From Brevibacillus massiliensis (GTDB lineage: Bacteria; Bacillota; Bacilli; Brevibacillales; Brevibacillaceae): DNA of 64,000 bases. This document shows, one piece after another, positions 17,140-46,177 of this stretch; the first letter of the stretch is position 1, and each line of letters starts with the position of its first letter. The position numbers and the translations under genes were made by a program. Where the stretch lies: positions 62,001 through 126,000 of the forward strand of contig NZ_HE978540.1 in NCBI RefSeq assembly GCF_000311785.1, given 5' to 3'. The notes beneath the pieces are model-generated. The model was not told the DNA's origin and searched no databases. It saw only the letters and a list, made by a program, of their open reading frames with translations.

Positions 17140-17958
17140 ATGAAAGGAACCGTCAAAACAACTTGTTTTGTCTCATCAGGGCTTCTATTGGCTGCTCTGC
17201 TCGTGTCGTTTACGCTTTTCCCATCAGATGCCCTGCCGGCAGATTCTCCTGTCTCCCAAAAGAAAAACGTGGCAATCGTCATCGATGATTTTGGCAACAA
17301 CATGGCCGGGACTGCAGAAATCATCGAATTGCCCTTTCATTTAACCATCGCCGTCATGCCGTTTCAGCGCACGACCCAGCGGGACGCCGAATGGGCCTAC
17401 CATGCCGGTCACGATGTATTTGTGCACATTCCGATGGAGCCGCTCTCCAAAAATGTCAGGGGCCTGGGGAAGGGAGCGATCACAACTGATCTGTCGGACG
17501 AGGAAATCCGCCTCCGCGTGAACGACGCCATCGATGATGTGCCCCATGCCGTCGGGATTAACAATCATATGGGGTCGAAGGCGACGGCGGACCGGCGGGT
17601 GATGCGCGCCGTTCTGCAGGTATGCCGGGAGCGGGGACTTACCTTTCTCGACAGCAAGACGAACCATCTGAGCATCGCCGGCGAGGTTGCCAAAGAATTG
17701 GGCGTACACTACGCGGAAAACCATCTGTTTTTAGACAACAAAAACAGCAGCCGCTACATCCAAAATCAGATCGGCCGCATCTACCAACACCTGTCAAATA
17801 AAGACAGCTGTGTTGCCATCGGCCACGTCGGCAGGCCGGGAAAAAAGACGGCAGCGGTACTGAAAAAAACGCTGCCCGAACTGAATAAAAAAGCAAATCT
17901 CGTAGGCGTCACCCAGCTTTTTCGTTTAAAGAATTCCCCTTTGCCCATCACCAATTAA
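17140..17958 (+). CDS. Divergent polysaccharide deacetylase family (YibQ-like) protein
   Basis: A 272-residue secreted protein with a signal peptide (MKGTVKTTCFVSSGLLLAAL). The domain starts VAIVIDDFGNNMAG and contains FHLTIAVMPFQ, HIPMEPL, GINNHMGSKATAD and CVAIGHVGRPG. These are the pattern of the Pfam family of divergent polysaccharide deacetylases. The catalytic activity of this family is not well established. The start ATG has GAGGGGG upstream; a longer frame to 16969 runs into the divergent promoter region. It is paired divergently with the SLH-GH18 gene, suggesting a wall-remodelling pair. Confidence 0.85.
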   Translation: MKGTVKTTCFVSSGLLLAALLVSFTLFPSDALPADSPVSQKKNVAIVIDDFGNNMAGTAEIIELPFHLTIAVMPFQRTTQRDAEWAYHAGHDVFVHIPMEPLSKNVRGLGKGAITTDLSDEEIRLRVNDAIDDVPHAVGINNHMGSKATADRRVMRAVLQVCRERGLTFLDSKTNHLSIAGEVAKELGVHYAENHLFLDNKNSSRYIQNQIGRIYQHLSNKDSCVAIGHVGRPGKKTAAVLKKTLPELNKKANLVGVTQLFRLKNSPLPITN

Positions 17959-31716: not shown

Positions 31717-32367
31717 CTAGGAAATCGTCGTATACGAATGAATGTCTTTGATTAGCTCGCTGGCGTTTAGCACATCAGCATATTTTTGTTCCATGTCAAA
31801 CAAGCTTTGGTCGTGCGAAGCGAGGGAACGATCGCCAACGGCGTCCTTTACGACTATCGGACGATACCCGTATTGGAGCGCATCAACCACTGTCGCCCGT
31901 ACGCATCCGCTGGTCGTGCATCCGGTCACAATCACCGTATCGATTCCGTTGACGTTCAAGCGGGAAATCAAATCCGTCCCGAAAAAAGCGGAAGCATACT
32001 TTTTGTTGAGGATGATGTCCCCTTTTTTGTAATGGAGCCGCGGATCCAACTGTACAGCATCCGTTCCGAATTTTAAGGTTTTTAAGCCTCCCATTTTTTT
32101 CAACCAGATTCCAGAATCCCCCATATTTTCTTCGTATGCGATTGTAGTGAATATGACGGGCAAGTTTTTTTCGTGAACCGCAGTCAGCAATCGATTGATG
32201 ACTTCAATCTGCCGGGATAAATCTGCCCCGAGAGGCATTGCCGGATCCGTAAAGCCTTTGATGACATCAACCACGAGGAAACAAGGCTTGTTCCCAATAC
32301 CTAGCGGTTGCCCAAAACCCCTTTCGCGAAAATGATGCAAATCATTTTGCCACTGATTGTTGTCCAT
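31717..32367 (-). CDS. nicF: Maleamate amidohydrolase (NicF-like cysteine hydrolase)
   Basis: A 216-residue isochorismatase-fold amidase. The catalytic triad is present: Asp34 in FLVVDVIKGFTDP, Lys122 in NKKYASAFFGT and Cys155 in TTSGCVRATVVDAL. The KYASAFFGT and TSGCVR blocks closely match the NicF/N-carbamoylsarcosine amidase branch. In the nicotinate route NicF converts maleamate to maleate and ammonia. It is the last gene of the nic cluster, 60 bases after nicE. The ATG at 32367 follows TTGGAGGAAACAC. The pathway role rests on the neighbours as well as on sequence. Confidence 0.87.
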   Translation of the reverse strand: MDNNQWQNDLHHFRERGFGQPLGIGNKPCFLVVDVIKGFTDPAMPLGADLSRQIEVINRLLTAVHEKNLPVIFTTIAYEENMGDSGIWLKKMGGLKTLKFGTDAVQLDPRLHYKKGDIILNKKYASAFFGTDLISRLNVNGIDTVIVTGCTTSGCVRATVVDALQYGYRPIVVKDAVGDRSLASHDQSLFDMEQKYADVLNASELIKDIHSYTTIS

Positions 32368-32427
32368 GTGTTTCCTCCAATTACCAAAATTCTTGTTCAC
32401 TTCCTCTTATTCGCGCTGCTGGGCAGC

Positions 32428-33177
32428 TCAATAACTGCCAGATAAAAGGGCCCCCGCATCAGGCACAATCGGTTTCAACCCCAGCGTCCTGAGGATTTGA
32501 TAGACTGTTGCCGTTGCTGCGGTTAGAACCGGTTTGCCCAACCTGTTTTCAACCTCCTGTACAGCCGGAAGTGACGGCATCTGAACACATGCTGAAAGCA
32601 CCACAGCATCCGCTTCCTGCACATTTAATTGTTCGGAAATCGAGATTAAATTCATCGGGTCCAGTCTGCCTACTGCAAGATTGTCGGGAACCTCCAGACT
32701 GATAGAGTCAACCACCTTGATACCGTAGGACTGAATATAGTCGATGACCATGCCGGTAAGCGGCTTCATATACGGGGCGATCAAAGCGATTTTTTTTGCG
32801 CCCATTGTCTGAATGCCCTGAATCAACGCCCCGGCACTGCTGACTGCGGGAATGTCAACCCCTGTGTCCTTCGCCGCCGCTGACAATTTCTCTTCCGAGA
32901 CAGAATGATAGCCAGGTCCATTGCACATGATCGCAACCAGACAGGCATATGCCAAGACATCGCACCTCGCATCTGCCAGTTCGACAGCGCAGCGGATGCT
33001 GTCATTGTCCATTTTGATCAATTCTTCCTTGGTCACATGCTGCATCCGCATGCGGCTAGAGTGAAAGGTAAATGTATCTTGTGCCAACCGTGAACGGGAT
33101 CTGAGCATTTCAGGAATCTCTGTTTCCATCGTTGTATTGGAACTGGGCACGATCAGCCCTATCCGAAAACTATTCAA
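32428..33177 (-). CDS. nicE: Maleate cis-trans isomerase (NicE)
   Basis: Asp/Glu racemase-fold enzyme that turns maleate into fumarate. The N-terminus MNSFRIGLIVPSSNTTMETE, the FTFHSSRMRM block and the two catalytic cysteines (Cys79 in YACLVAIM and Cys197 in LSACVQMPSLPAV) are family hallmarks, as is the closing GALLSGSY. I place the start at a TTG (33177) eight bases after AAGGAG, which reproduces the family N-terminus. Longer frames to 33201 or 33249 lack ribosome binding sites. It lies between nicX and nicF and gives the last step into the TCA cycle. Confidence 0.92.
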   Translation of the reverse strand: MNSFRIGLIVPSSNTTMETEIPEMLRSRSRLAQDTFTFHSSRMRMQHVTKEELIKMDNDSIRCAVELADARCDVLAYACLVAIMCNGPGYHSVSEEKLSAAAKDTGVDIPAVSSAGALIQGIQTMGAKKIALIAPYMKPLTGMVIDYIQSYGIKVVDSISLEVPDNLAVGRLDPMNLISISEQLNVQEADAVVLSACVQMPSLPAVQEVENRLGKPVLTAATATVYQILRTLGLKPIVPDAGALLSGSY

Positions 33178-33252
33178 ACTGTCCCACTCCTTTTTCAACA
33201 TGTTTGCCTTGCCGTACGTCATTGTGCCACTGCGAAACACAACCGACAAAAA

Positions 33253-34278
33253 TCATACCGGTTTCATTTCTTCGATCACGACGTCCCCATCCTTTACGAT
33301 GAGTTTGCCGTCCAGGTACAACGTGCAGTCTTTCAGGGGAATATCAAGATGGCATTTGGTATCATTGGTTCCGCCCAGTTCTGTATTTGGGCCTAACGAA
33401 AACAAGACATTTCCGTAAAAAGAGCGTCCGTCCATGCCAAACACGTTGCTGTCCAAGGCCAAACTGTGCCACTTGGCACGTTCATTCAGCCCCCAGCCGA
33501 TATGGGATATCGCGTAGGCCCGGGGATCCTGGAAACTTTCCATGTATTCCCTCATCAACATGGCGTCAAACCCGCCTTCAATCGTCGTGACCAAACCGTC
33601 TTTTATTGTGAGCGTTACCGGCTCCTGCACATACCTGTTAAACGGGAAGAGAATATCCCCGCGATCAAGAACAACTACTCCTTCCACGCCTCCGTCATTT
33701 GGCGTGCCTGCCGAAAATCCGCTTGGCAGATGATCCCATCTGCCCGGTTCATCGGCAAATCCGTATTCGACCAGGATGGGATACTGTCCCAACTGGTACG
33801 TTACATCCGTGCCAGCCTTGTTCGTAAATCTCAATTCTTTTGCCTTTTTTAATAAATCGGCAGCAAACAGCACCCTTTGCTTGTCGCTTGGTTTGGGGAA
33901 CATTCTTTTAATGACTTCAAACGGTTCAACAACCAACAAAATTCTTTTCCCTTCATTCTGCAGTTCCAACTGTTCCTTGGAGAACAACAACAAGACCAGA
34001 TCGATAATCAAATCCGCTTTTTTCAGCATTTCAACCGCTGCCCGGTTGTCTGTAAGCGGGGTAATTCCAAACGAACCCGAAATCCCCCGATTGGCGGGTG
34101 GAATGTTCAATTCAAATGTGTTCGCTCCGATCATTTTGGCTGCTTCCATAAAAGCTTTGGCATAATCTTTCAGAACTTCCCCTGACGTCAGCACAGCCAT
34201 CGTTTCGGTTGGCTTCAACTGGCAGAGTTCCAATTCCATTTTGAACAGTTCTACCATTTCGTTAAAATTTGTACTCAT
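33253..34278 (-). CDS. nicX: 2,5-dihydroxypyridine 5,6-dioxygenase (NicX)
   Basis: An iron-dependent ring-cleaving enzyme that opens 2,5-dihydroxypyridine to N-formylmaleamate. It has 341 residues. The fold is related to M29 aminopeptidases, but the diagnostic segments are those of NicX: GQYPILVEYGFADEPGRWDH, the iron-site region ISHIGWGLNERAKW, FYGNVLFSLGPNTELGG and KCHLDIPLKDC. The start ATG follows GAGGAGATGAAAGC. It sits between the importer genes and nicE. A generic aminopeptidase label is possible in databases but fits the context worse. Confidence 0.9.
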   Translation of the reverse strand: MSTNFNEMVELFKMELELCQLKPTETMAVLTSGEVLKDYAKAFMEAAKMIGANTFELNIPPANRGISGSFGITPLTDNRAAVEMLKKADLIIDLVLLLFSKEQLELQNEGKRILLVVEPFEVIKRMFPKPSDKQRVLFAADLLKKAKELRFTNKAGTDVTYQLGQYPILVEYGFADEPGRWDHLPSGFSAGTPNDGGVEGVVVLDRGDILFPFNRYVQEPVTLTIKDGLVTTIEGGFDAMLMREYMESFQDPRAYAISHIGWGLNERAKWHSLALDSNVFGMDGRSFYGNVLFSLGPNTELGGTNDTKCHLDIPLKDCTLYLDGKLIVKDGDVVIEEMKPV

Positions 34279-34311: not shown

Positions 34312-35028
34312 TTAACCATGCAGTAAATGCTGCTGCCCCATATAGATCGATTGAATGGATCGATCTTTTCGAAGCGTTTCGCTGTCCCCTGTCAATACCG
34401 TTCTGCCCAACTCAATGACATATGCCCGATCGGAAACTTCCAATGCCAGCTCGACATTCTGCTCGATCAGCAGAATCGTCATCCCTGCTTTGCGGAGCGA
34501 AATGATACTGTCAAAAATCATGTCAATAATCTGCGGCGCCAAACCCAGTGATGGTTCATCGAGCATCAGTAGTTTGGGCTCGCTGATTAGCGCTCTGCCA
34601 ATTGCCAGCATCTGCTGCTCTCCACCGCTGAGACTTCCGCCAAGCTGATTTCTTCGTTCTTTCAGTCGCGGGAACAATCGGAATATTTCCTCTATTTTTG
34701 TCTGATCGATTCTTTTTTTAAGAAATCCGCCCATTTTTAAATTCTCTTCCACGGTCAGAGTAGGGAAGATGCGCCGTCCTTCAGGAACTTGTGAAATACC
34801 CAAGGATACAATCTCGTGAGGTTGCTTTTTGCTGATGTCGGTGTGATTGAATTCGATCAGCCCCTCTTTCTGCCTGATCACGCCGCTGATCGACATCAAT
34901 GTGGTCGATTTACCTGCCCCGTTGTTTCCGAGAATGCAGATAATTTCCCCCTGGTTTACTTCAAAGCTGATATCTTCCAAAGCCTGCGCATTTCCGTAGT
35001 AGGCAATCAAGTGTTCCACTTTAAGCAT
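34312..35028 (-). CDS. livF: Branched-chain-type ABC transporter ATPase LivF
   Basis: A 238-residue ATPase of the LivF type: Walker A GNNGAGKST, signature LSGGEQQMLAIGRAL, Walker B LLMLDEPSLGLAP, and the LivF hallmark GISQVPEGRRIFPTLTVEENL. It pairs with the LivG half of the fused permease gene just upstream, whose stop it overlaps by eight bases. Together with LivH and LivK it forms an importer inside the nic cluster, so its substrate is probably a pyridine carboxylate rather than leucine. Confidence 0.9.
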   Translation of the reverse strand: MLKVEHLIAYYGNAQALEDISFEVNQGEIICILGNNGAGKSTTLMSISGVIRQKEGLIEFNHTDISKKQPHEIVSLGISQVPEGRRIFPTLTVEENLKMGGFLKKRIDQTKIEEIFRLFPRLKERRNQLGGSLSGGEQQMLAIGRALISEPKLLMLDEPSLGLAPQIIDMIFDSIISLRKAGMTILLIEQNVELALEVSDRAYVIELGRTVLTGDSETLRKDRSIQSIYMGQQHLLHG

Positions 35029-36805
35029 GCTTTCTGTCCCTCCTCCCTAAATATGCCTCCACAACTTGCGGATTTTGCATCACCTCCTCGGGGCTGCCAT
35101 CGGCAATTTTTTCTCCAAAATTCAACACAGCCATATGGTCGCAGAGGTTGGACAACAGATTTAAGTCATGTTCAACAATAAAAATGGTGATGGCGAATTC
35201 ATCCCGCAAACGTAAAATCAATTTTTGCAGTTGTTCTCTTTCCTTTAAGTTCAGTCCGGCTGCTGGCTCATCAAGAAACAAAATCTTCGGCCCGGAGGCG
35301 AGGGCGCGGGCAATTTCCGCCAAGCGGCGGTGTCCGTATGAAAGATTGGCGCATAATTCGAAAGCCTTGTCCTCCAAACCCGTTAACTTGATCAGTTGAT
35401 ACGCCACGTTGACAGCATACTGCTCCTCCGAAAGAAACTTTTTGTTTTGCAGCAGTGCCAGACCGATATCGTTTTTTAATCTGCATGACATTCCTGTTAC
35501 CACATTTTCCAGAACCGTCATGCTTTCGAACAACCTGCTCGTTTGGAACGTTCTTACCAAGCCCAGGCTGCCCAAATGAAATATCGTTTTATCTGTAACT
35601 TCTCGTTGCTGAAAATAAACTTGCCCCGATGTCGGTCTTTCCAACCCGGTTACAATGTTGATAAACGTCGTTTTGCCCGCCCCATTCGGCCCGATCAATC
35701 CAAAAATCTCTCCTGTCCGTACCTCCAGGCTGACATCTTGAAGCGCCTTGATGCCTCCAAATTGTTTCGTTACATGTTCGAGCTTTAAGATTGCACTGTC
35801 GTCCGCTTTGGTTTGAGACAGAAATTGTCTCAGATTGATCGTCGATCTTGCCACAGCAGTTTGTTTTTCACCCGATTTGAACCGTTTATGTAGAAAACCG
35901 TAAATACCATTCGGCAAAAAAATCATCATCAGCACAATGCAAACTCCGTATATAATCGGCCGGTACAATGGAATTTCTTTTAAAAATTCGTTAAAAAACG
36001 TGACGCCGAATCCTCCCAGTAAAGCCCCGGTAAAAGAACCCAGGCCGCCGAGAACGACCATAAGGATAACGGTAATGGATTCAAGAAAATGGAATGGCTC
36101 CGGGCTGATAAACGCATACATATGCACCATTACGCTGCCTGCCAATCCGGCCCAAAAACAGCCGATGATAAAACCTTTTGTTTTCGTAGAGCCGATATTG
36201 ATGCCTACTGAAGCCGCAGCAAGCTGGTTGTCACGAATTGCCCGAAAGTTTCTGCCCAATCTTCCTTCCGTCAGCCTGATCATAAAGACATACTGGACAA
36301 TCAACAAAATGGACGAAAGAATAAAAAATTCCTTCTTGCTGTCAACAGACCAGCCCAAAATGTTGGGATAGGGAATATTGGTTAGTCCGTTCCACCCTCC
36401 TGTCCAGCTTCCGCCGTTGGCAAAAACGATAATCAAGATTAAATTAAAGGCGAAAGTGGACATGGCAAAATAGATTTCCGAGAGTTTCGCCATCGGTGAA
36501 AGGATAATCGAGGCAATCGCGGCCACGATCCCCGACAGCAAGAAAGCAACAAGAAAATTCACATCCAAATGCAACGTGAGAATAGCCGAGGTATAAGCGC
36601 CGATGCCAAAAAAACCTGCCTGAGCTAGACTGACCTGACCGGCATACCCGAAAATGAGCTGCAGCGACACAGCCAAAATCGTATAAATCGCCGCCTGGGA
36701 AAACAACGACAAATAGTAGTTGGACTGGGTAAAAACGGCCGCCAACACAAAGATGATCAGATATACGATGATGGGTCCGTACGATTTGAGACGGTTTGAC
36801 TTCAA
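35021..36805 (-). CDS. Fused LivM permease - LivG ATPase
   Basis: A 594-residue fusion of two usually separate importer subunits. Residues 1-320 are a LivM-type permease with about nine membrane spans (LIFGYAGQVSLAQAGFFGIGAYTSA, the EAA-like RAIRDNQLAAASVGINI, VLGGLGSFTGALLGG). After a short linker, residues about 340-594 are a LivG-type ATPase: Walker A GPNGAGKTTF, LSYGHRRLAEIARAL as the signature, and LLDEPAAGLNLKE. The start overlaps the livH stop by four bases and the stop overlaps livF by eight. LivM-LivG fusions are known, but they are a minority arrangement. Confidence 0.92.
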   Translation of the reverse strand: MKSNRLKSYGPIIVYLIIFVLAAVFTQSNYYLSLFSQAAIYTILAVSLQLIFGYAGQVSLAQAGFFGIGAYTSAILTLHLDVNFLVAFLLSGIVAAIASIILSPMAKLSEIYFAMSTFAFNLILIIVFANGGSWTGGWNGLTNIPYPNILGWSVDSKKEFFILSSILLIVQYVFMIRLTEGRLGRNFRAIRDNQLAAASVGINIGSTKTKGFIIGCFWAGLAGSVMVHMYAFISPEPFHFLESITVILMVVLGGLGSFTGALLGGFGVTFFNEFLKEIPLYRPIIYGVCIVLMMIFLPNGIYGFLHKRFKSGEKQTAVARSTINLRQFLSQTKADDSAILKLEHVTKQFGGIKALQDVSLEVRTGEIFGLIGPNGAGKTTFINIVTGLERPTSGQVYFQQREVTDKTIFHLGSLGLVRTFQTSRLFESMTVLENVVTGMSCRLKNDIGLALLQNKKFLSEEQYAVNVAYQLIKLTGLEDKAFELCANLSYGHRRLAEIARALASGPKILFLDEPAAGLNLKEREQLQKLILRLRDEFAITIFIVEHDLNLLSNLCDHMAVLNFGEKIADGSPEEVMQNPQVVEAYLGRRDRKHA

Positions 36806-37677
36806 GCGGTATCCCTCCGTTTCTTTATGCCCAGTATGCCGGCAGGACGTATTAACAACACCAGAATCAAAATCGCATACAAGATCAGATCGCGAAATTC
36901 CGAGCTGATCATCGTTCCGCCAAACGCCTCGATCAAACCGAGCAAGATGCCGCCAATGACGGCTCCCATGATATTGCCAAACCCGCCTAATACAGCCGCC
37001 GCAAACGCCTTGATGCCAATAATCCCCATATCATAGGAAACGTAATAGAGCGGGCCTAACAGGACACCTGCGACTCCGGTCAAGGCTCCGGCTACCAGAA
37101 AAATGAGCGCGATGTATTTGCGGTGATTCACCCCAAGCAACTGTGACATGACGCGATCGTCTGCAATGGCTCTCATCGCCTGGCCTATACGGGTAAATTT
37201 AAAAAACAGCTGAAACAAAATCATAATAGAAAGACTTAATAGAATAATCGAAAAACTGATCGCAGAAATCTTTGCGCTTCCCAACTGAACCTGCCCGGCA
37301 GATAAACTGCTTGGAAAACTCAAAGGCTCCGCTCCCCAGATCAATGAGCCGATTTGCGGCAAAATAATCATAATTCCGATGCTGGCAATCAAGACATGAA
37401 TGCTTTGACCGCCGCGTTTTTGCACCGGATGAAACACAAGCACATTAGACAAGTATCCGACCAGACCAGCAATTGCCATGGTACACAACATGACCAGGTA
37501 AAAATTTTGGGTGCCATCGGTAATCAGACTGAACCCGACAAGCCCTCCGATCATGACAAACTCACCAGTGCCAATATTTAATACGCCCGACGAACGAAAG
37601 ATAAGACTGAACGACATGGCAATTAAACTGTAAATGCATCCGACGGCGAGACCACTAACGAATATGTCAAAATACAC
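36802..37677 (-). CDS. livH: Branched-chain-type ABC transporter permease LivH
   Basis: A 291-residue membrane protein with about eight spans. LivH hallmarks are GCIYSLIAMSFSLIFRSSGVLNIGTGEFVMIGG, the cytoplasmic loop RIGQAMRAIADDRVMSQLLGVN and AAAVLGGFGNIMGAVIGGILLG. It forms the translocation path with the LivM half of the fused gene. It starts 11 bases after the livK stop, so the two are co-transcribed. Confidence 0.93.
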   Translation of the reverse strand: MYFDIFVSGLAVGCIYSLIAMSFSLIFRSSGVLNIGTGEFVMIGGLVGFSLITDGTQNFYLVMLCTMAIAGLVGYLSNVLVFHPVQKRGGQSIHVLIASIGIMIILPQIGSLIWGAEPLSFPSSLSAGQVQLGSAKISAISFSIILLSLSIMILFQLFFKFTRIGQAMRAIADDRVMSQLLGVNHRKYIALIFLVAGALTGVAGVLLGPLYYVSYDMGIIGIKAFAAAVLGGFGNIMGAVIGGILLGLIEAFGGTMISSEFRDLILYAILILVLLIRPAGILGIKKRRDTA

Positions 37678-37688
37678 CGTATCCCTCC

Positions 37689-38864
37689 TTAATACGAACC
37701 GGCTTGAAGGACTTTTTCCAATTTCAGCTGTCCGTTATCCCAATTCACGATGAAAATCGGTTTTGTTGCTGAACCGTCATCGTTAAAGGATGTGAGCCCT
37801 GAAGCTCCTTCATAGTTTTTGATGTTCAGCAGTTCCTTCTGCACCTCGTCTGGGGCGGCAGATCCCGCTTTTTCGATCGCGGTCTTCAGGATATAAACGG
37901 AGTCGTATCCATGCGCCTGATAAACGTTGGGCTCCAGGTTGAATTTGCTTTTCCATGCTTCGATAAAGGTTTTCGTTTTTTCACCAATATCGGTGTCGGA
38001 AAAATAGGCCGCACTGATCATCGTATGATTGGAAGCATCACCGGCGATCTCATAATACTGCGGACTGGAGATTGGGTTTGTGGCGATAAACGGTTTGTCG
38101 TAACCAAGCGCTCTGGCCTGTTTCGCGATCAATCCGCTGTCCGCCGCATAGCCAGATAAAAATATGTAGGCATTCGGGTTTGAACTGATGCCTTGGCTAA
38201 TGTACGAATTAAAGTCTTTTGCGTCATTGGGATACTTGAATTCATGGACAATTTTCATGTCCAACTCCGCTGATTTCTCCCTAAAAGCTTTATAAACACT
38301 GGTGCCAAAAGCGTCATCCCGGATAAAAGCGATCACTTCTTTTACGCCCATCTCTTTCGCTGCATAGTAGGCGGCTGCCCAGCCAAACTGATTATTGTTG
38401 GCCAAATTCACAAAGAATCGCGGATTTTCGGATACGACTCCCGGATCTGACGCGATTGGTGACACGGCAATCATGTTGTTTTCCTTCACTTTGGCCACTT
38501 GTGACAAAGCAACCGCGCTGCTCGATCCGCTGATCACAAATTTGATATCCCGGTTGGCAAATTTGTCGATGGCCTGCTGCCCTTTAAACGGATTCCCTTC
38601 GTCGTCTTCCGATACCAGTTCTACTGTCTTCCCAAGAATTCCGCCGTTTTTGTTGATTTCATCGACAGCGTATTTTACCGCATCATACGCCGGTTTTCCG
38701 AAAGCGGCGGTTGCCCCGCTCAGCCCGCCGACATAACCCAAAGTCAACGTTCCTCCACCGCTTTTACTGCTTCCCGTTGATTCTGCAGAATTGTCCGTTC
38801 CGCAGCCTGTCAGAAGAAATGAAAGCAGTGACATCACTGACAACATTGATACTAATTTTTTCAA
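37689..38864 (-). CDS. livK: ABC transporter substrate-binding lipoprotein, LivK type
   Basis: A 391-residue type I periplasmic-binding-protein fold. The lipoprotein signal ends in LLTGC (lipobox, about residue 21), so the protein is anchored on the outer face of the membrane. The mature domain has LGYVGGLSGATAAFGKPAYDAVK and the two-lobed LivK pattern through YEGASGLTSFNDDGSATKPIFIV. The start is a TTG with AAAGGGG upstream. In this cluster the ligand is likely nicotinate, 6-hydroxynicotinate or a hydroxypyridine rather than a branched-chain amino acid. That is inference from position. Confidence 0.9.
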   Translation of the reverse strand: MKKLVSMLSVMSLLSFLLTGCGTDNSAESTGSSKSGGGTLTLGYVGGLSGATAAFGKPAYDAVKYAVDEINKNGGILGKTVELVSEDDEGNPFKGQQAIDKFANRDIKFVISGSSSAVALSQVAKVKENNMIAVSPIASDPGVVSENPRFFVNLANNNQFGWAAAYYAAKEMGVKEVIAFIRDDAFGTSVYKAFREKSAELDMKIVHEFKYPNDAKDFNSYISQGISSNPNAYIFLSGYAADSGLIAKQARALGYDKPFIATNPISSPQYYEIAGDASNHTMISAAYFSDTDIGEKTKTFIEAWKSKFNLEPNVYQAHGYDSVYILKTAIEKAGSAAPDEVQKELLNIKNYEGASGLTSFNDDGSATKPIFIVNWDNGQLKLEKVLQAGSY

Positions 38865-38965: not shown

Positions 38966-39784
38966 TTATTTCAGATGATCTCTGATGAAGGAGAGTATAT
39001 AATCTGCTGTTTCCTGCGGTGCCTCCTTATATACCATGTGACCAACGCCGTTCACGACAACTGCCTGCAAACGAGGATTGAGAGACTTCAGCTCTGCAAG
39101 TTCATCGGGACGAATCGTATCTCCAAGTTCAGCGGCTAACAGCAGCATCGGACATGCTGTCAATTTTACATTGACCTGAAAAGGTTCTTTGATAAAGTTG
39201 TTGTATGATTCAATGATCGCTTCCTTGCTTACGTTCAGGTATTCGGTTATTCGTATCTTCAACTGTTCTTCATGAAAGTGCGGATAAAAAGCGCGAAATT
39301 TGTCCCATTCTTCTTCATCAGCCGCAGCTTTTTGTTCCAGAAACATGGAAAGAGAATTCGGGTAAACTTGTCTATGACCCGGACCGGTAACCGGTGGGTC
39401 GATGAGCACCATTCCGGAGATGAGAGATGAGTATGCGCTGCCAAAACCGGATGCAATTCTCGCACCCATGGAATGGCCGACGAGGAATGGAGCAGTCGGA
39501 TTTCCGGTTAACGCATTCACCACATTTAATAGATCCTCAACGTAATCTTGCATACGGTATCCCTGTTTTGGCCAGCTGGATTTCCCACGCCCGCGAATAT
39601 CCATTGACAAACAAAAGAGGTGATCAGGCATCCGCTTTAAAATTTCCGAAAATGACATACTGTAGCTTGTGATGCCCGGAAGAAAAATAACCGGCACCCC
39701 ATTCCGATCGCCTTTGGTAAGTAAGTGAATATCCGCGTTAAGGCCGCTGACAAACATATGTCCGAAAAGTTCCTTATCGTCCAC
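38966..39784 (-). CDS. nicD: N-formylmaleamate deformylase-like alpha/beta hydrolase (NicD)
   Basis: A 272-residue alpha/beta hydrolase. The nucleophile elbow is GHSMGAR, the oxyanion region VIFLPGITSYSMSFSE with DIRGRGKSSWP is NicD-like, and the catalytic histidine is in VNGVGHMVYKEAP. NicD removes the formyl group from N-formylmaleamate, giving maleamate and formate. The start is GTG 39784 behind AGGGGGG. Hydrolases of this fold are diverse, so the specific role comes mainly from its position between nicC and nicX in a complete pathway. Confidence 0.82.
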   Translation of the reverse strand: MDDKELFGHMFVSGLNADIHLLTKGDRNGVPVIFLPGITSYSMSFSEILKRMPDHLFCLSMDIRGRGKSSWPKQGYRMQDYVEDLLNVVNALTGNPTAPFLVGHSMGARIASGFGSAYSSLISGMVLIDPPVTGPGHRQVYPNSLSMFLEQKAAADEEEWDKFRAFYPHFHEEQLKIRITEYLNVSKEAIIESYNNFIKEPFQVNVKLTACPMLLLAAELGDTIRPDELAELKSLNPRLQAVVVNGVGHMVYKEAPQETADYILSFIRDHLK

Positions 39785-39832
39785 TCTGATGCCCCCCTAT
39801 CGTGTACTGAAAATGATAAAAACTTACCAAAC

Positions 39833-41074
39833 CTACAATTCCTTCATACTGACGCTCGAAGAGACCCCAAAACGCTGACGGCACGTGGTCGCGTCATATT
39901 CGTATACCCACTCGGCACTGATGCCGACCGCATGAGGATTTCGGGTCTGCCTTTCCCGTATGGCAAGATCCCGCCGACGTTGTTCCTCAGGTGAATCCAG
40001 GTGGTAGGTACGGCCTCTTTCGCGGGATTGCAGCTGTACGTCCCGCGTTCGATTGCGACGCTCCGCTTCATACGCGTCTAGTGCCAGGGTTACGTTCCCG
40101 CCAAAATAAACAAGAGCTTCGGAAAGGACATAAGCATCTTCTATCGCCATAGCAGCACCCTGAGACAAGTATGGAAGCATGGGATGTGCTGCGTCACCCA
40201 GGAGTGTGGCATGACCTCGGGACCAGCGTTCCATAGGATTTCGGTCATACAATCCCCACTTGAAAACCAGTGAATTATCTGTGCGTTCGAAAAGACGAAT
40301 CAAATCAGAATGCCAACCATCGTACGCTTTCAATAGTTCTTCGGTCGAACTAGGCTCAGTCCATGATTCTTTCACCCATTCATCTGTCTCTTTGCAAGCG
40401 ACAATATTGACTGCGCTGCCACCCTTGACGTAGTAGGTAACCACATGCGCTTTGGGACCAAACCAGAAGGTTGCCGCTGGCAGAACGAAAGGCAGCGGAT
40501 GCTTGTCGACCGGGACAAGCGCACGCCAACACATGTGCCCGGTAAATGTCGGAGCATCCTTGCCCCACAAAGCCCCCCGGACAACAGAGCGTATTCCGTC
40601 CGCGCCAACAATCAGGTCACCCTCGAATTCATCTCCATTATCAAATACAGCAACTGCCTTATCCTCCCTTAGTTGAACATTTACACATTTGACATTAAAA
40701 GTAATGCACTCTTCCGGTAACCCTTCTGCCAAGATACTGTGCAGGTCAGCGCGGTGCACGTGATAGTACGCAGCACCAAAAAGCCTGACAAACGTATCCT
40801 TTAAGGGAGTTCGAAATAATTCCTCACCCGTCTCCCAACTGCGCCCCACCATCGCTTCCGGCAAGAAACCAACCTGCTGAATCTCGTTTTCAAGCCCGAG
40901 TGATTTCAATACCTTGACGGCATTAGGCGTCATTTGGATTCCGGCACCAACTTCCCTGAACTCCGCTGCTTGTTCAAACAATTGAAAAGAAATGCCACGC
41001 TGCCATAAAGCTCGCGCCAAAGCTACCCCGCCAATACCACCACCGATAATACCGACACGTAAAGACTTCTTCAT
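39833..41074 (-). CDS. nicC: FAD-dependent 6-hydroxynicotinate 3-monooxygenase-like enzyme (NicC)
   Basis: A 413-residue class A flavin monooxygenase. The dinucleotide-binding motif is GIIGGGIGGVALARAL, the DG motif is LIVGADGIRSVVR and the GD motif is HATLLGDAAHPMLPYLSQGA. NicC decarboxylates and hydroxylates 6-hydroxynicotinate to 2,5-dihydroxypyridine, the substrate of NicX encoded in the same cluster. Salicylate-type hydroxylases look alike, so specificity is inferred from context. The ATG follows GGGGGGAGATAAGGG. The only strong promoter seen lies about 280 bases upstream, giving a long leader. Confidence 0.83.
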   Translation of the reverse strand: MKKSLRVGIIGGGIGGVALARALWQRGISFQLFEQAAEFREVGAGIQMTPNAVKVLKSLGLENEIQQVGFLPEAMVGRSWETGEELFRTPLKDTFVRLFGAAYYHVHRADLHSILAEGLPEECITFNVKCVNVQLREDKAVAVFDNGDEFEGDLIVGADGIRSVVRGALWGKDAPTFTGHMCWRALVPVDKHPLPFVLPAATFWFGPKAHVVTYYVKGGSAVNIVACKETDEWVKESWTEPSSTEELLKAYDGWHSDLIRLFERTDNSLVFKWGLYDRNPMERWSRGHATLLGDAAHPMLPYLSQGAAMAIEDAYVLSEALVYFGGNVTLALDAYEAERRNRTRDVQLQSRERGRTYHLDSPEEQRRRDLAIRERQTRNPHAVGISAEWVYEYDATTCRQRFGVSSSVSMKEL

Positions 41075-41084
41075 CCCTTATCTC

Positions 41085-41384
41085 CCCCCGTTTTTTATAA
41101 AGCTAAAAGGAACCAACCATTGAAGTTACTCGTTCTAGTCAATTGGTATTATTCGTTCACCCCTATTTCAACATTTGGCTGACGAGTAGATTGCTTTACT
41201 ACAAATCCCGACTATCGATTCCAAAAATGTCATATTTCACGAATGTACAATCGGGTATTTGAGTAAGTTTTGCATACCTTTTACAATAATTTGAAACATT
41301 TAAAACAAATAAAAGTTACCAAACATAATTATTTTTACTAATTTTCTTTTTTCTGATTATACTTTAATCCGAATTATCTGTCAA
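41085..41384 (-). promoter_or_regulatory. Nic operon promoter and long AT-rich leader
   Basis: TTGACA (41379-41384), exactly 17 bases, then TATAAT (41356-41361) on the minus strand: a perfect sigma-A consensus. A dyad (GATTA, five bases, TAATC; 41355-41369) covers the -10 box and part of the spacer and is a candidate operator. Transcription would begin near 41349, leaving a leader of about 275 nt before nicC. The leader is AT-rich with a weak CCCGA/TCGGG pairing and no recognised riboswitch. Confidence 0.75.
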
Positions 41385-41465
41385 TATGACCCTGATAGTC
41401 TCTATTCTAAATTTCGAAAGCCTGTAAAAACGGGGGATTATGGAAAAGGACAGCATTAAATTGGC

Positions 41466-41834
41466 AAATATGCGGAGAAATTGGCACAGGAAGCCGGCGG
41501 CGTAGAACCGCATTCCCATGCAAGGGGATTTGTCCTTCAAGTTTGGGCTGAAAGATAGAATTCTCAGGGAAGCAGAAAAAGGGGGAATGCAAAAAACAAG
41601 GGGAGAAACCGAAGCACGCTCTCGCGGAGGAGCAGCGCCAAGCCATTTTGGTTCTCTTCCAGGGCGAACGGGGTACAAAGGCTGTCATGATCATCCCTTT
41701 TATACGCCCGCTCCTCCAGGAAAGCCGCCTATGCAGCCGAGTTTGACTATGCGGTTGTAGAATGCACGAACCAAGGTATTCCTTGTCTTGGCGGCAGCCC
41801 AGGCAGCTTGGCACACTTTCAGGGGAAGATGTGA
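41466..41834 (+). pseudogene. Frameshifted coding remnant, family unknown
   Basis: Three successive plus-strand fragments in different frames read like protein: KYAEKLAQEAGGVE (from 41466), KHALAEEQRQAILVLFQGER with GTKAVMIIPFIRPLLQ (about 41620-41750), and KAAYAAEFDYAVVECTNQG to a TGA at 41834. None has a start. The pattern suggests one decayed gene with at least two frameshifts between the nic promoter and its regulator. No family recognised. No intact gene is seen on either strand here. Confidence 0.35.
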
Positions 41835-41841
41835 AACACCT

Positions 41842-42627
41842 TTACTTCGATTTTTTCAGTGATCCCGCTTCGTTCAGGCATTTCATCACTTTGTCCAACG
41901 TCATTACATCAGCGTAACGTGCATTTAAGTCAAGAAGGGTCGCTCTTTGAATCGATTCAGAACGGTCGCCGACAGCTTCTTCAGGAATGATGACACGATA
42001 ACCGCGCTGCAATGCTTCCACTGCAGTTGCTCGGATGCTGCCGCTCGTCGTGGTTCCAGCCAATATGACCGTATCGATTTCTCTTTGCTGCAGAAACTCT
42101 TCTAGCGGAGAACAATAAAAATCGTTAATGTAAGCGGTTGCATTAATCATATCATACGTAAATTCATCTAATTTCGGATGAATTTTCACCCATGCTGTAT
42201 TACGGTCAAGCAACTGTATGGAAGGAAATTTTTGTCCCCAAAGCTGTGAAAATCTATCTGCCGAGTCATAGATGGTCTTGCTAAAAACAACCGGAAAATG
42301 ATTGGCAAGAGCAGTTTTGACCAGTTGTGTCACCGCTTCAATCTGCCCGTTTAACTGAATGGATAATTTCGAATTTGGATCCGTAAAAGCCAAAGTCATG
42401 TCACGAACAAGCACAGCCGGTTTACCGCCAAATCCGATTTGTCCTGAGAACCCCTGCTGTGAATACAGATGCTGTATTTCGTCTAAAATGTACCTGCGTT
42501 GCCCCCCAGGTGTATAAATCACACTCAATCCGTATCCTTCCACAACACCGTCATGTTCCAGTCTGCGCAGCGTACTGGCTGAAATCCCAAGAAGTTTGGC
42601 TGCCTCTGAAATATTTAACAACTTCAT
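41842..42627 (-). CDS. MerR-type HTH fused to a catalytically dead isochorismatase domain; candidate nic regulator
   Basis: A 261-residue protein. Residues 3-55 are a MerR-superfamily winged HTH (NISEAAKLLGISASTLRRLE, then the wing YTPGGQRRYILDEI). Residues 63-245 are an isochorismatase-fold domain close to the NicF protein of this cluster (shared TTSG-IRAT and EEAVGDRS-type blocks). The catalytic Asp is kept (Asp76, VRDMTLAFTDP). The nucleophile position is Ser197 (codon AGC), and the K-YASAFFGT block is replaced by DMINATAYINDF, losing the Lys. An active amidase is therefore unlikely. I infer a ligand-sensing transcription factor that binds maleamate or a related amide. The ATG at 42627 follows GGGGAGGG. 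Confidence 0.85.
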   Translation of the reverse strand: MKLLNISEAAKLLGISASTLRRLEHDGVVEGYGLSVIYTPGGQRRYILDEIQHLYSQQGFSGQIGFGGKPAVLVRDMTLAFTDPNSKLSIQLNGQIEAVTQLVKTALANHFPVVFSKTIYDSADRFSQLWGQKFPSIQLLDRNTAWVKIHPKLDEFTYDMINATAYINDFYCSPLEEFLQQREIDTVILAGTTTSGSIRATAVEALQRGYRVIIPEEAVGDRSESIQRATLLDLNARYADVMTLDKVMKCLNEAGSLKKSK

Positions 42628-42711
42628 TTTGAAATACCCTCCCCGAATATTTGCACATGAATAAAAATCAAACGATTCTGTAGGTTTGATAAGTTTCATC
42701 AACTAAGAAAT

Positions 42712-42741
42712 ATTATATATTATTTGACGCTTACCTGCCAA
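42712..42741 (-). promoter_or_regulatory. Promoter of the MerR-isochorismatase gene
   Basis: TTGGCA (42736-42741), 18-base spacer, TATAAT (42712-42717) on the minus strand, about 85 bp upstream of the start codon. A near-palindrome (GTTGAT ... ATCAAAC, 42684-42703) lies just downstream and could be an autoregulatory operator. Confidence 0.55.
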
Positions 42742-45556: not shown

Positions 45557-45586
45557 TTGACGACTATACCGTCCGGACGGTATAGT
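45557..45586 (+). promoter_or_regulatory. Sigma-A promoter with overlapping 22-bp TetR operator
   Basis: TTGACG at 45557-45562, 18-base spacer, TATAGT at 45581-45586. A perfect 22-bp palindrome with half-site CTATACCGTCC occupies 45564-45585, filling the spacer and the -10. A repressor bound there would block RNA polymerase. It lies 40 bp upstream of the tetR-family start codon. The design implies autoregulation of the tetR-SMR operon. Confidence 0.88.
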
Positions 45587-45625
45587 AAAGAAAAACAAGA
45601 GTGGAAACGGAAGGCGGAAAGAAGC

Positions 45626-46177
45626 GTGGGAGCTGCAAAAACAACCCGCGAAGCGATTCTTGAAGCAGCTTATGCCTTGATCCAAAACGAGGGGATCGGC
45701 CGTTTGACGCTGGATGCGGTTGCCGAGCAAGCGAAAATAAGCAAAGGCGGGCTGCTGTATCACTTTCCCTCAAAAGAAGCTTTGATAGAGGGAATGATCG
45801 ACCATCTGTTTAAGGACTTTCATCAGCAAATAGAGAATGACATCTCCATGGAACCCTGCTCCCCGGGGAAGTGGGCGCGCGCCTACGTCCGCACCGCCTT
45901 CCTCAGTACCGAGCAGGAATTGAAGATCAGCGTCGGCTTGCTGGCCGCGCTGGTAAACAAGCCGGAACTGTTGGAGCCTGTCCGCCGTTACTATGAGGGC
46001 TGGCAGGAACGGCTAGAACGAGACGGGATTGACCCTGGAGCAGCGACGATCTGCCGGCTTGCCGCTGACGGTTTGTGGTTTGCCGAGATGTTTGGGCTGG
46101 CTCCGCTGGCAAACCGCGAGCTGCGGGAGCGCGTACAGCATTTGTTGATCAGCATGTCAAAGGGGGAAGCGAGATGA
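45626..46177 (+). CDS. TetR/AcrR-family repressor
   Basis: A 183-residue regulator. The N-terminal HTH reads REAILEAAYALIQNEGIGRLTLDAVAEQAKISKGGLLYHFPSKEALIEGM, a textbook TetR domain. The C-terminal helical ligand domain ends in LADGLWFAEMFGL, a pattern of the TetR_C_4/YcdC-type group. I choose GTG 45626, because the TTG at 45557 is the -35 element of the promoter. The last codons overlap the efflux gene start (ATGA), so the pair is co-translated. The ligand is probably a lipophilic cation or other toxic drug. Confidence 0.9.
   Translation: MGAAKTTREAILEAAYALIQNEGIGRLTLDAVAEQAKISKGGLLYHFPSKEALIEGMIDHLFKDFHQQIENDISMEPCSPGKWARAYVRTAFLSTEQELKISVGLLAALVNKPELLEPVRRYYEGWQERLERDGIDPGAATICRLAADGLWFAEMFGLAPLANRELRERVQHLLISMSKGEAR

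Follow-up and report, generated by a model that had tools for sequence, protein, structure and literature searches.

In a 64,000-nt window of Brevibacillus massiliensis (GCF_000311785.1, contig NZ_HE978540.1, positions 62,001–126,000; genome of 5,060,362 bases), an operator-like motif follows an exact-consensus promoter ahead of nicC and reappears at the promoter of the gene just upstream, which fuses a MerR-type helix-turn-helix (HTH) to a NicF-like isochorismatase domain. What the sequence itself shows is the promoter, the sites and the fact that they recur in other genomes, along with the fusion and the loss of its catalytic residues. From these features, we consider it probable that a pseudoenzyme repressor sits just after very strong promoters and is released when a metabolite of the lower pathway binds its dead active site.

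The nicC promoter, leader and operon

An exact TTGACA-N17-TATAAT promoter ahead of nicC, as claimed in an earlier note, is present on the minus strand at 41384–41356 and matches the consensus at 12/12 positions. The -35 hexamer occupies 41379–41384 and the -10 hexamer 41356–41361, with a predicted start at about 41349, 275 nt from the nicC ATG at 41074. Genome-wide, this exact string has 13 copies, and the backwards-read pattern has none. The description of the leader (41075–41349, minus strand) as long, AT-rich and without an open frame also holds: it measures 275 nt, 41075–41355 has a G+C content of 32% against 53% for the window, and the longest open reading frame there is 21 codons. In the promoter listing for 41075–41355 there is no second minus-strand promoter of at least 9/12.

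All genes of the operon lie on the minus strand. The first, at 39833–41074, encodes an FAD monooxygenase that we call nicC by context; its best NCBIfam model is 3-hydroxybenzoate 6-monooxygenase (312.7 bits, under the cut-off of 459), and the protein falls under the cut-off of every model among the 25 of 61 listed. It is followed by an alpha/beta hydrolase gene (38966–39784), nicD-like by context, and by a branched-chain-type ABC transporter (34312–38864) comprising livK, whose product was searched in the family library, and livH, livMG and livF, named from their translations. Further downstream are a nicX-like gene (33253–34278), also named by context and with no Pfam or NCBIfam match for its product, a gene for a nicE-like Asp/Glu racemase family protein (32428–33210) and one for a nicF-like isochorismatase with a full Asp-Lys-Cys triad (31717–32400).

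A 441-bp stretch (41395–41835) with no counterpart in G008, the closest relative found, separates the fusion gene from the nicC promoter. We dropped the idea of a transposase relic because the stretch is single-copy in the genome; three open reading frames that lie within or overlap it match nothing in Pfam (41407–41814, E 0.001; 41518–41760 and 41364–41678, E 1). Elsewhere in the same genome, contig C1 carries a second nic-like cluster (L072, 2168–8853) with nicD-, nicE-, nicF- and nicX-like genes, led by a gene resembling the HpaB-type hydroxylase of L064; the 16 kb read there hold no fusion gene and no exact motif. Another locus (L073, 8760–9137) contains a partial, apparently decayed relative of the fusion isochorismatase domain, with 47.5% identity over 80 residues.

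The earlier note had proposed a minus-strand dyad, GATTA-N5-TAATC (41355–41369), as the operator. The dyad, GATTA-AAGTA-TAATC, is indeed present, perfect and overlaps the -10 hexamer. However, when the 326-nt region was shuffled 1000 times with its dinucleotides preserved, 44.7% of the shuffles contained at least one 5-5-5 dyad (mean 0.58), and the matching G008 promoter, which reads ATTCC-AAG-TATAATC, lacks it. With gaps of 3–8, the region has three dyads against a shuffle mean of 3.8. We therefore judge the dyad a chance feature, and its role as an operator very improbable.

The leader itself, being 275 nt long and untranslated, might be taken for an RNA regulatory element such as a riboswitch or attenuator, and a folding and covariance check had been suggested for it. 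We found no sign of structured RNA. The leader folds with a z of -0.99, and its fold was equalled or bettered by 27 of 200 shuffles; no Rfam family matches it at gathering thresholds, no minus-strand terminator is listed within it, and the nicC leader of G008, at 142 nt, keeps neither its sequence nor its length. Having failed to show the conserved, stable structure of a riboswitch or structured leader, it is most unlikely to act as an RNA element.

An operator-like motif past the start site

The sequence ATGRAAGNTTTGGTAAGTTT recurs at the start site of near-consensus promoters that drive HpaB- or NicF-led operons in G147, G207, G217 (whose family is not that of the window) and Peribacillus. 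We built a matrix from just six sites, from G147, G207, G217 and a Peribacillus plasmid, and scanned both strands of the window. Its top three matches, identical at widths of 12, 18 and 22, lie at 39831 in the nicC–nicD gap, at 42685 in the fusion-gene promoter and at 41323 in the nicC leader; for the 12-mer, ranks 4 and 5 fall at 39713 inside nicD and at 41259 in the leader. In the 20-kb G008 locus, the nicC leader and a pair of overlapping sites at the fusion promoter take the top three places with the 12-mer, whose fourth match lies elsewhere (13327) and whose fifth lies before nicD (10685); the 22-mer places a site at 17375 second, above the G008 nicC leader. The window and G008 were absent from the matrix training, although their matches had been noticed by eye before the motif core was chosen.

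In the nicC leader, TTTGGTAACTTT (41312–41323, minus strand) lies at +27, and a weaker site, TTGAGTAAGTTT (10/12; 41259–41270), lies on the plus strand at +80, with the centres of the two 53 bp apart. The fusion gene has its own promoter, TTGGCA-N18-TATAAT (11/12; 42712–42741, minus strand), and TTTGATAAGTTT (42685–42696) follows just past its -10, on the opposite strand at +10. Between nicC and nicD is TTTGGTAAGTTT (39820–39831, minus strand), and inside the 5′ end of nicD is the weaker TTTGGTAAGTAA (10/12; 39713–39724, plus strand). The motif is AT-rich with no clear palindrome and, by reading, looks more like TTTGRT repeats about 9 bp apart.

Exact TTTGRTAASTTT occurs four times in the whole genome, three of them at the nic locus and the fourth at C6:57183. 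The backwards control of the pattern occurs six times, more than the pattern itself, so the evidence lies in the clustering and not in the number. The best site of the nicC leader was reached in 7 of 1000 shuffles, and that of each of the other two regions in 0 of 1000. We regard the placement of the motif as a strong sequence pattern.

We compared nine operon promoters: that of nicC in the window, those of nicC and nicD in G008, one in G147, two in G207, one in G217 and two in Peribacillus. They match the consensus at 10–12 of 12 positions with spacers of 17–18, and their leaders span 48–275 nt, the longest being that of nicC in the window and the 48 nt of G147 being counted from the first ATG (105 from the start that matches the G207 protein). 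In eight of the nine, the best site falls between +8 and +27; the ninth, G008 nicD, has an 11-of-12 site at +101. Among fusion genes, we compared the geometry in the window and G008, the promoter assignments in G217, Peribacillus and G157 being doubtful and left aside; in both, the site is on the opposite strand, at +10 and +14.

This reversal of strand argues for a DNA site and against a signal in peptide or RNA. A short leader peptide, ATG-GAA-GCT-TTG-GTA-AGT-TTG-GTT and onwards, could be read from the conserved stretch in six promoters (of G147, G207, G217 and Peribacillus), where that stretch starts with ATG. However, the motif is turned around ahead of the fusion gene in both the window and G008, and G008 nicC has no ATG at that place. 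On the strand orientation we reject a leader peptide, which we regard as extremely unlikely.

The earlier note had held that so good a promoter implies tight repression. As a reading this survives, given the operator-like motif at +27, its weaker copy at +80 and the recurrence in relatives of near-consensus promoters followed by the same motif; what falls away is the dyad as the operator. A MerR-type HTH would also fit an activator, bound within the transcribed region or reshaping the promoter like classical MerR proteins. Against this, promoters that match at 10–12 of 12 with spacers of 17–18 should need no activator, and in nearly all of them the best site falls between +8 and +27; activation by the fusion protein is thus a decidedly unlikely reading.

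The fusion gene and its relatives

The candidate repressor is encoded at 41842–42627 on the minus strand. Its N-terminal MerR HTH is recognised by Pfam PF00376 with 28.8 bits, barely above the cut-off of 28.2, and its isochorismatase domain by PF00857 with 84.5 bits. An AlphaFold model, made with an alignment of nine sequences (9 of the 12 fusions) and with a mean pLDDT of 79.9, comprises helices at residues 6–13 and 17–25, strands at 34–38 and 44–48, and a helix at 50–58, with low confidence at 57–62. The top fold match in the PDB is the maleamate amidase Ami, with a TM score of 0.90 by target and 0.72 by query length; the Foldseek match to 4l08 (E 3.1e-17) places the model in the isochorismatase-like cysteine hydrolase fold.

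The catalytic triad of this fold, Asp-Lys-Cys, is not intact in the window fusion: Asp76 is kept, Thr164 takes the place of Lys and Ser197 that of Cys. The spacing of 33 between Thr164 and Ser197 equals that of Lys142 and Cys175 in BiuH, according to the accessible part of its description (PMC5806882), and we took the catalytic Lys of NicF to be Lys133 from the same spacing of 33 to its Cys. We aligned 12 fusions, among which the G402 fusion and that of the second Peribacillus plasmid are not included, with 11 NicF-like neighbours. The Asp is kept in 12/12 fusions. The Lys is absent from all 12 and replaced by Thr (10) or Ser (2), although its loss in the G391b fusion, which has a Lys one column later, depends on the alignment. 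The Cys is absent from 11/12, the nucleophile position holding Ser in 10, Ala in one (G391b) and Cys in one (G197). All 11 neighbours retain the full triad. An unrooted FastTree of the isochorismatase domain puts all 12 fusions in one group with a local support of 0.91 (1.00 for the ten close ones), and the group adjoins the two distant NicF-like neighbours. Judged by these residues, the amidohydrolase domain of the fusion should no longer catalyse, and the loss of Lys and Cys argues against the fusion protein being an enzyme.

We searched 398 genomes of the class, the window's own included. Matches at E 1e-15 or better were found in 21; the fusion is present, at E 1e-55 or better, in 10 of the 21, with two copies in G391. 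Additional fusions are those of G402 and of two Peribacillus frigoritolerans plasmids; further searches gave no fusion gene beyond those of the 398-genome class search, and a scan of genome contigs gave one distant locus. A nic-type gene with at least 57% identity lies nearby for 8 of the 12 fusion genes whose surroundings were read. The G391b and G197 fusions have only a distant NicF-like neighbour (34%), and the stretches read around those of G319 and G157, the latter an 11.5-kb contig, contain no nic genes. In G008, the fusion gene (85% identity) stands directly before nicC (88%), without the 441-bp stretch. The G008 locus (L061, 7953–18882) is otherwise rearranged, with nicC and the fusion gene on one strand, nicD, the transporter and nicX-E-F divergent, and sites at nicC, the fusion gene and nicD.

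Over 11 fusion-bearing loci, all 10 exact sites fall in fusion or nic intergenic DNA, which makes up 6,614 of 265,062 bases (2.5%); the counts over these loci are partly circular, as the motif core was chosen after the window and G008 matches had been noticed and the R and S of the pattern were taken from the window sites. Of sites matching at 11 or more of 12 positions, 20/31 are intergenic in this sense, whereas 200 permuted motifs, at the same 11-of-12 level, averaged 0.57 and never exceeded 5. The reversed motif reached 1/17 at 11 of 12 and 20/155 at 10 of 12, where the motif itself reached 37/146; the looser matches thus partly reflect composition. These counts leave out L069 (G319, with an altered start), L071–L074 and G402.

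Individual loci differ in how well the site beside the fusion gene matches. L066 has one 11-of-12 site, L062 and L067 have sites of only 10 of 12, and L068 and L070 have none of at least 10 of 12. Beside the distant G391 fusion in L068 (8898–9344), AAGTTTGGTCAAGTTTGGT on the reverse strand resembles a doubled half-site, below the 10-of-12 cut. In G157 (L071, 9655–10050), a shortened fusion gene still encodes the HTH and is preceded by an exact motif; it may be a relic or a form that only binds DNA.

The motif could instead be the operator of a different regulator, with the fusion protein a bystander or a weak enzyme. Binding of the motif by the fusion protein is our inference, a TetR-type regulator is encoded at 45557–46177 in the window, and two distant fusions have no nearby 10-of-12 sites. 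Yet exact sites precede the fusion gene both in the window and in G008, and also the shortened copy in G157, whose site was outside both the matrix training and the locus counts. Moreover, the second nic-like cluster of the same genome, which is without a fusion gene, has no exact site, and a weak enzyme would sit poorly with the lost Lys and Cys. We consider a different regulator unlikely, and take the fusion protein as the candidate that would act at these sites.

A proposed mechanism and its place among known systems

We propose that the nicC operon is driven by a strong sigma-A promoter that would need no helper and would be controlled through operators past the start site. The regulator would be the product of the gene just upstream, with its MerR-type winged HTH and NicF-like amidohydrolase domain. 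With no substrate present, the fusion protein, which by analogy with the related enzymes is probably a dimer or tetramer, would occupy TTTGRTAASTTT sites in the nicC leader (at +27 and perhaps +80), at the nicC–nicD junction and at its own promoter, blocking initiation or escape. The protein could also bridge the 53 bp between the two leader sites; we speculate that such bridging would explain the long leader. When a lower-pathway amide, for example maleamate, enters the dead active site, the protein would let go and the strong promoter would fire.

As to the direction of control, repression is the simplest reading of a seemingly self-sufficient promoter, sites just past the start and a putative sensor pocket resembling the maleamate site. 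As to the ligand, a lower-pathway compound seems a likelier inducer than 6-hydroxynicotinate, because what nicC-type and HpaB-type clusters have in common is the lower pathway and not the hydroxylase. More broadly, we lean towards a new class of one-component repressors in Bacilli, in which a MerR-type head on a naturally dead NicF would sense an intermediate of the pathway from which it came and control nicC-type and HpaB-type pyridine clusters through 12-bp operators past near-consensus promoters. The recurrence of the site in several genomes makes the regulon and ligand directly testable, and the fusion/operator pair could serve as a biosensor for maleamate-type compounds.

The closest structural relatives are enzymes of the same pathway. 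The maleamate amidohydrolase NicF (3ot4/3uao) and Ami (4l07/4l08) have the same fold as the fusion, with TM scores of 0.88–0.90 by target length and 27–28% identity; unlike them, the window fusion carries an HTH at its N terminus and has lost the catalytic Lys and Cys. With the MerR family, the fusion shares the N-terminal domain. MerR proteins carry a C-terminal coiled-coil dimerisation helix, whereas the model of the fusion has no such long helix and passes from the low-confidence residues 57–62 into the isochorismatase domain. The MerR operator lies between the -35 and -10 hexamers, in a spacer of 19–20 bp from which classical MerR proteins activate; here, the spacers are 17–18 and the sites lie past the start. 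An enzyme-related domain in a regulator is also seen in NrtR, a Nudix-related repressor of NAD genes, but NrtR joins a Nudix domain to NAD synthesis, whereas the fusion would join an isochorismatase domain to pyridine breakdown.

The proposed role is one that other proteins fill elsewhere. BpsR/NicR, of the MarR family, are repressors of nicotinate catabolism, and the accessible part of PMC6837509 describes BpsR DNA binding as lowered by 6-hydroxynicotinate; the fusion differs in fold family, and its sensor looks derived from the pathway's own amidase. In B. niacini, TetR and IclR genes have been suggested as regulators with unclear targets, as far as the accessible text of PMC4256190 goes. 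If our reading is correct, it would supply a regulator and an operator for nicotinate and pyridine catabolism in these Bacilli, where the accessible account of B. niacini offered only those TetR and IclR suggestions. Among the best-ranked results of open-access literature searches, we found no paper on a MerR–isochorismatase regulator.

A precedent for the dead pocket comes from BiuH, a tetrameric isochorismatase-family protein. Its C175S variant carries the same Cys-to-Ser change as most fusions and, in the accessible part of PMC5806882, is inactive and yet has substrate bound in the crystal; it is a laboratory variant and no regulator. If our reading holds, the fusion would clearly exemplify how a catabolic enzyme can become a sensor for the pathway it came from, with the very change used in BiuH to catch the substrate.
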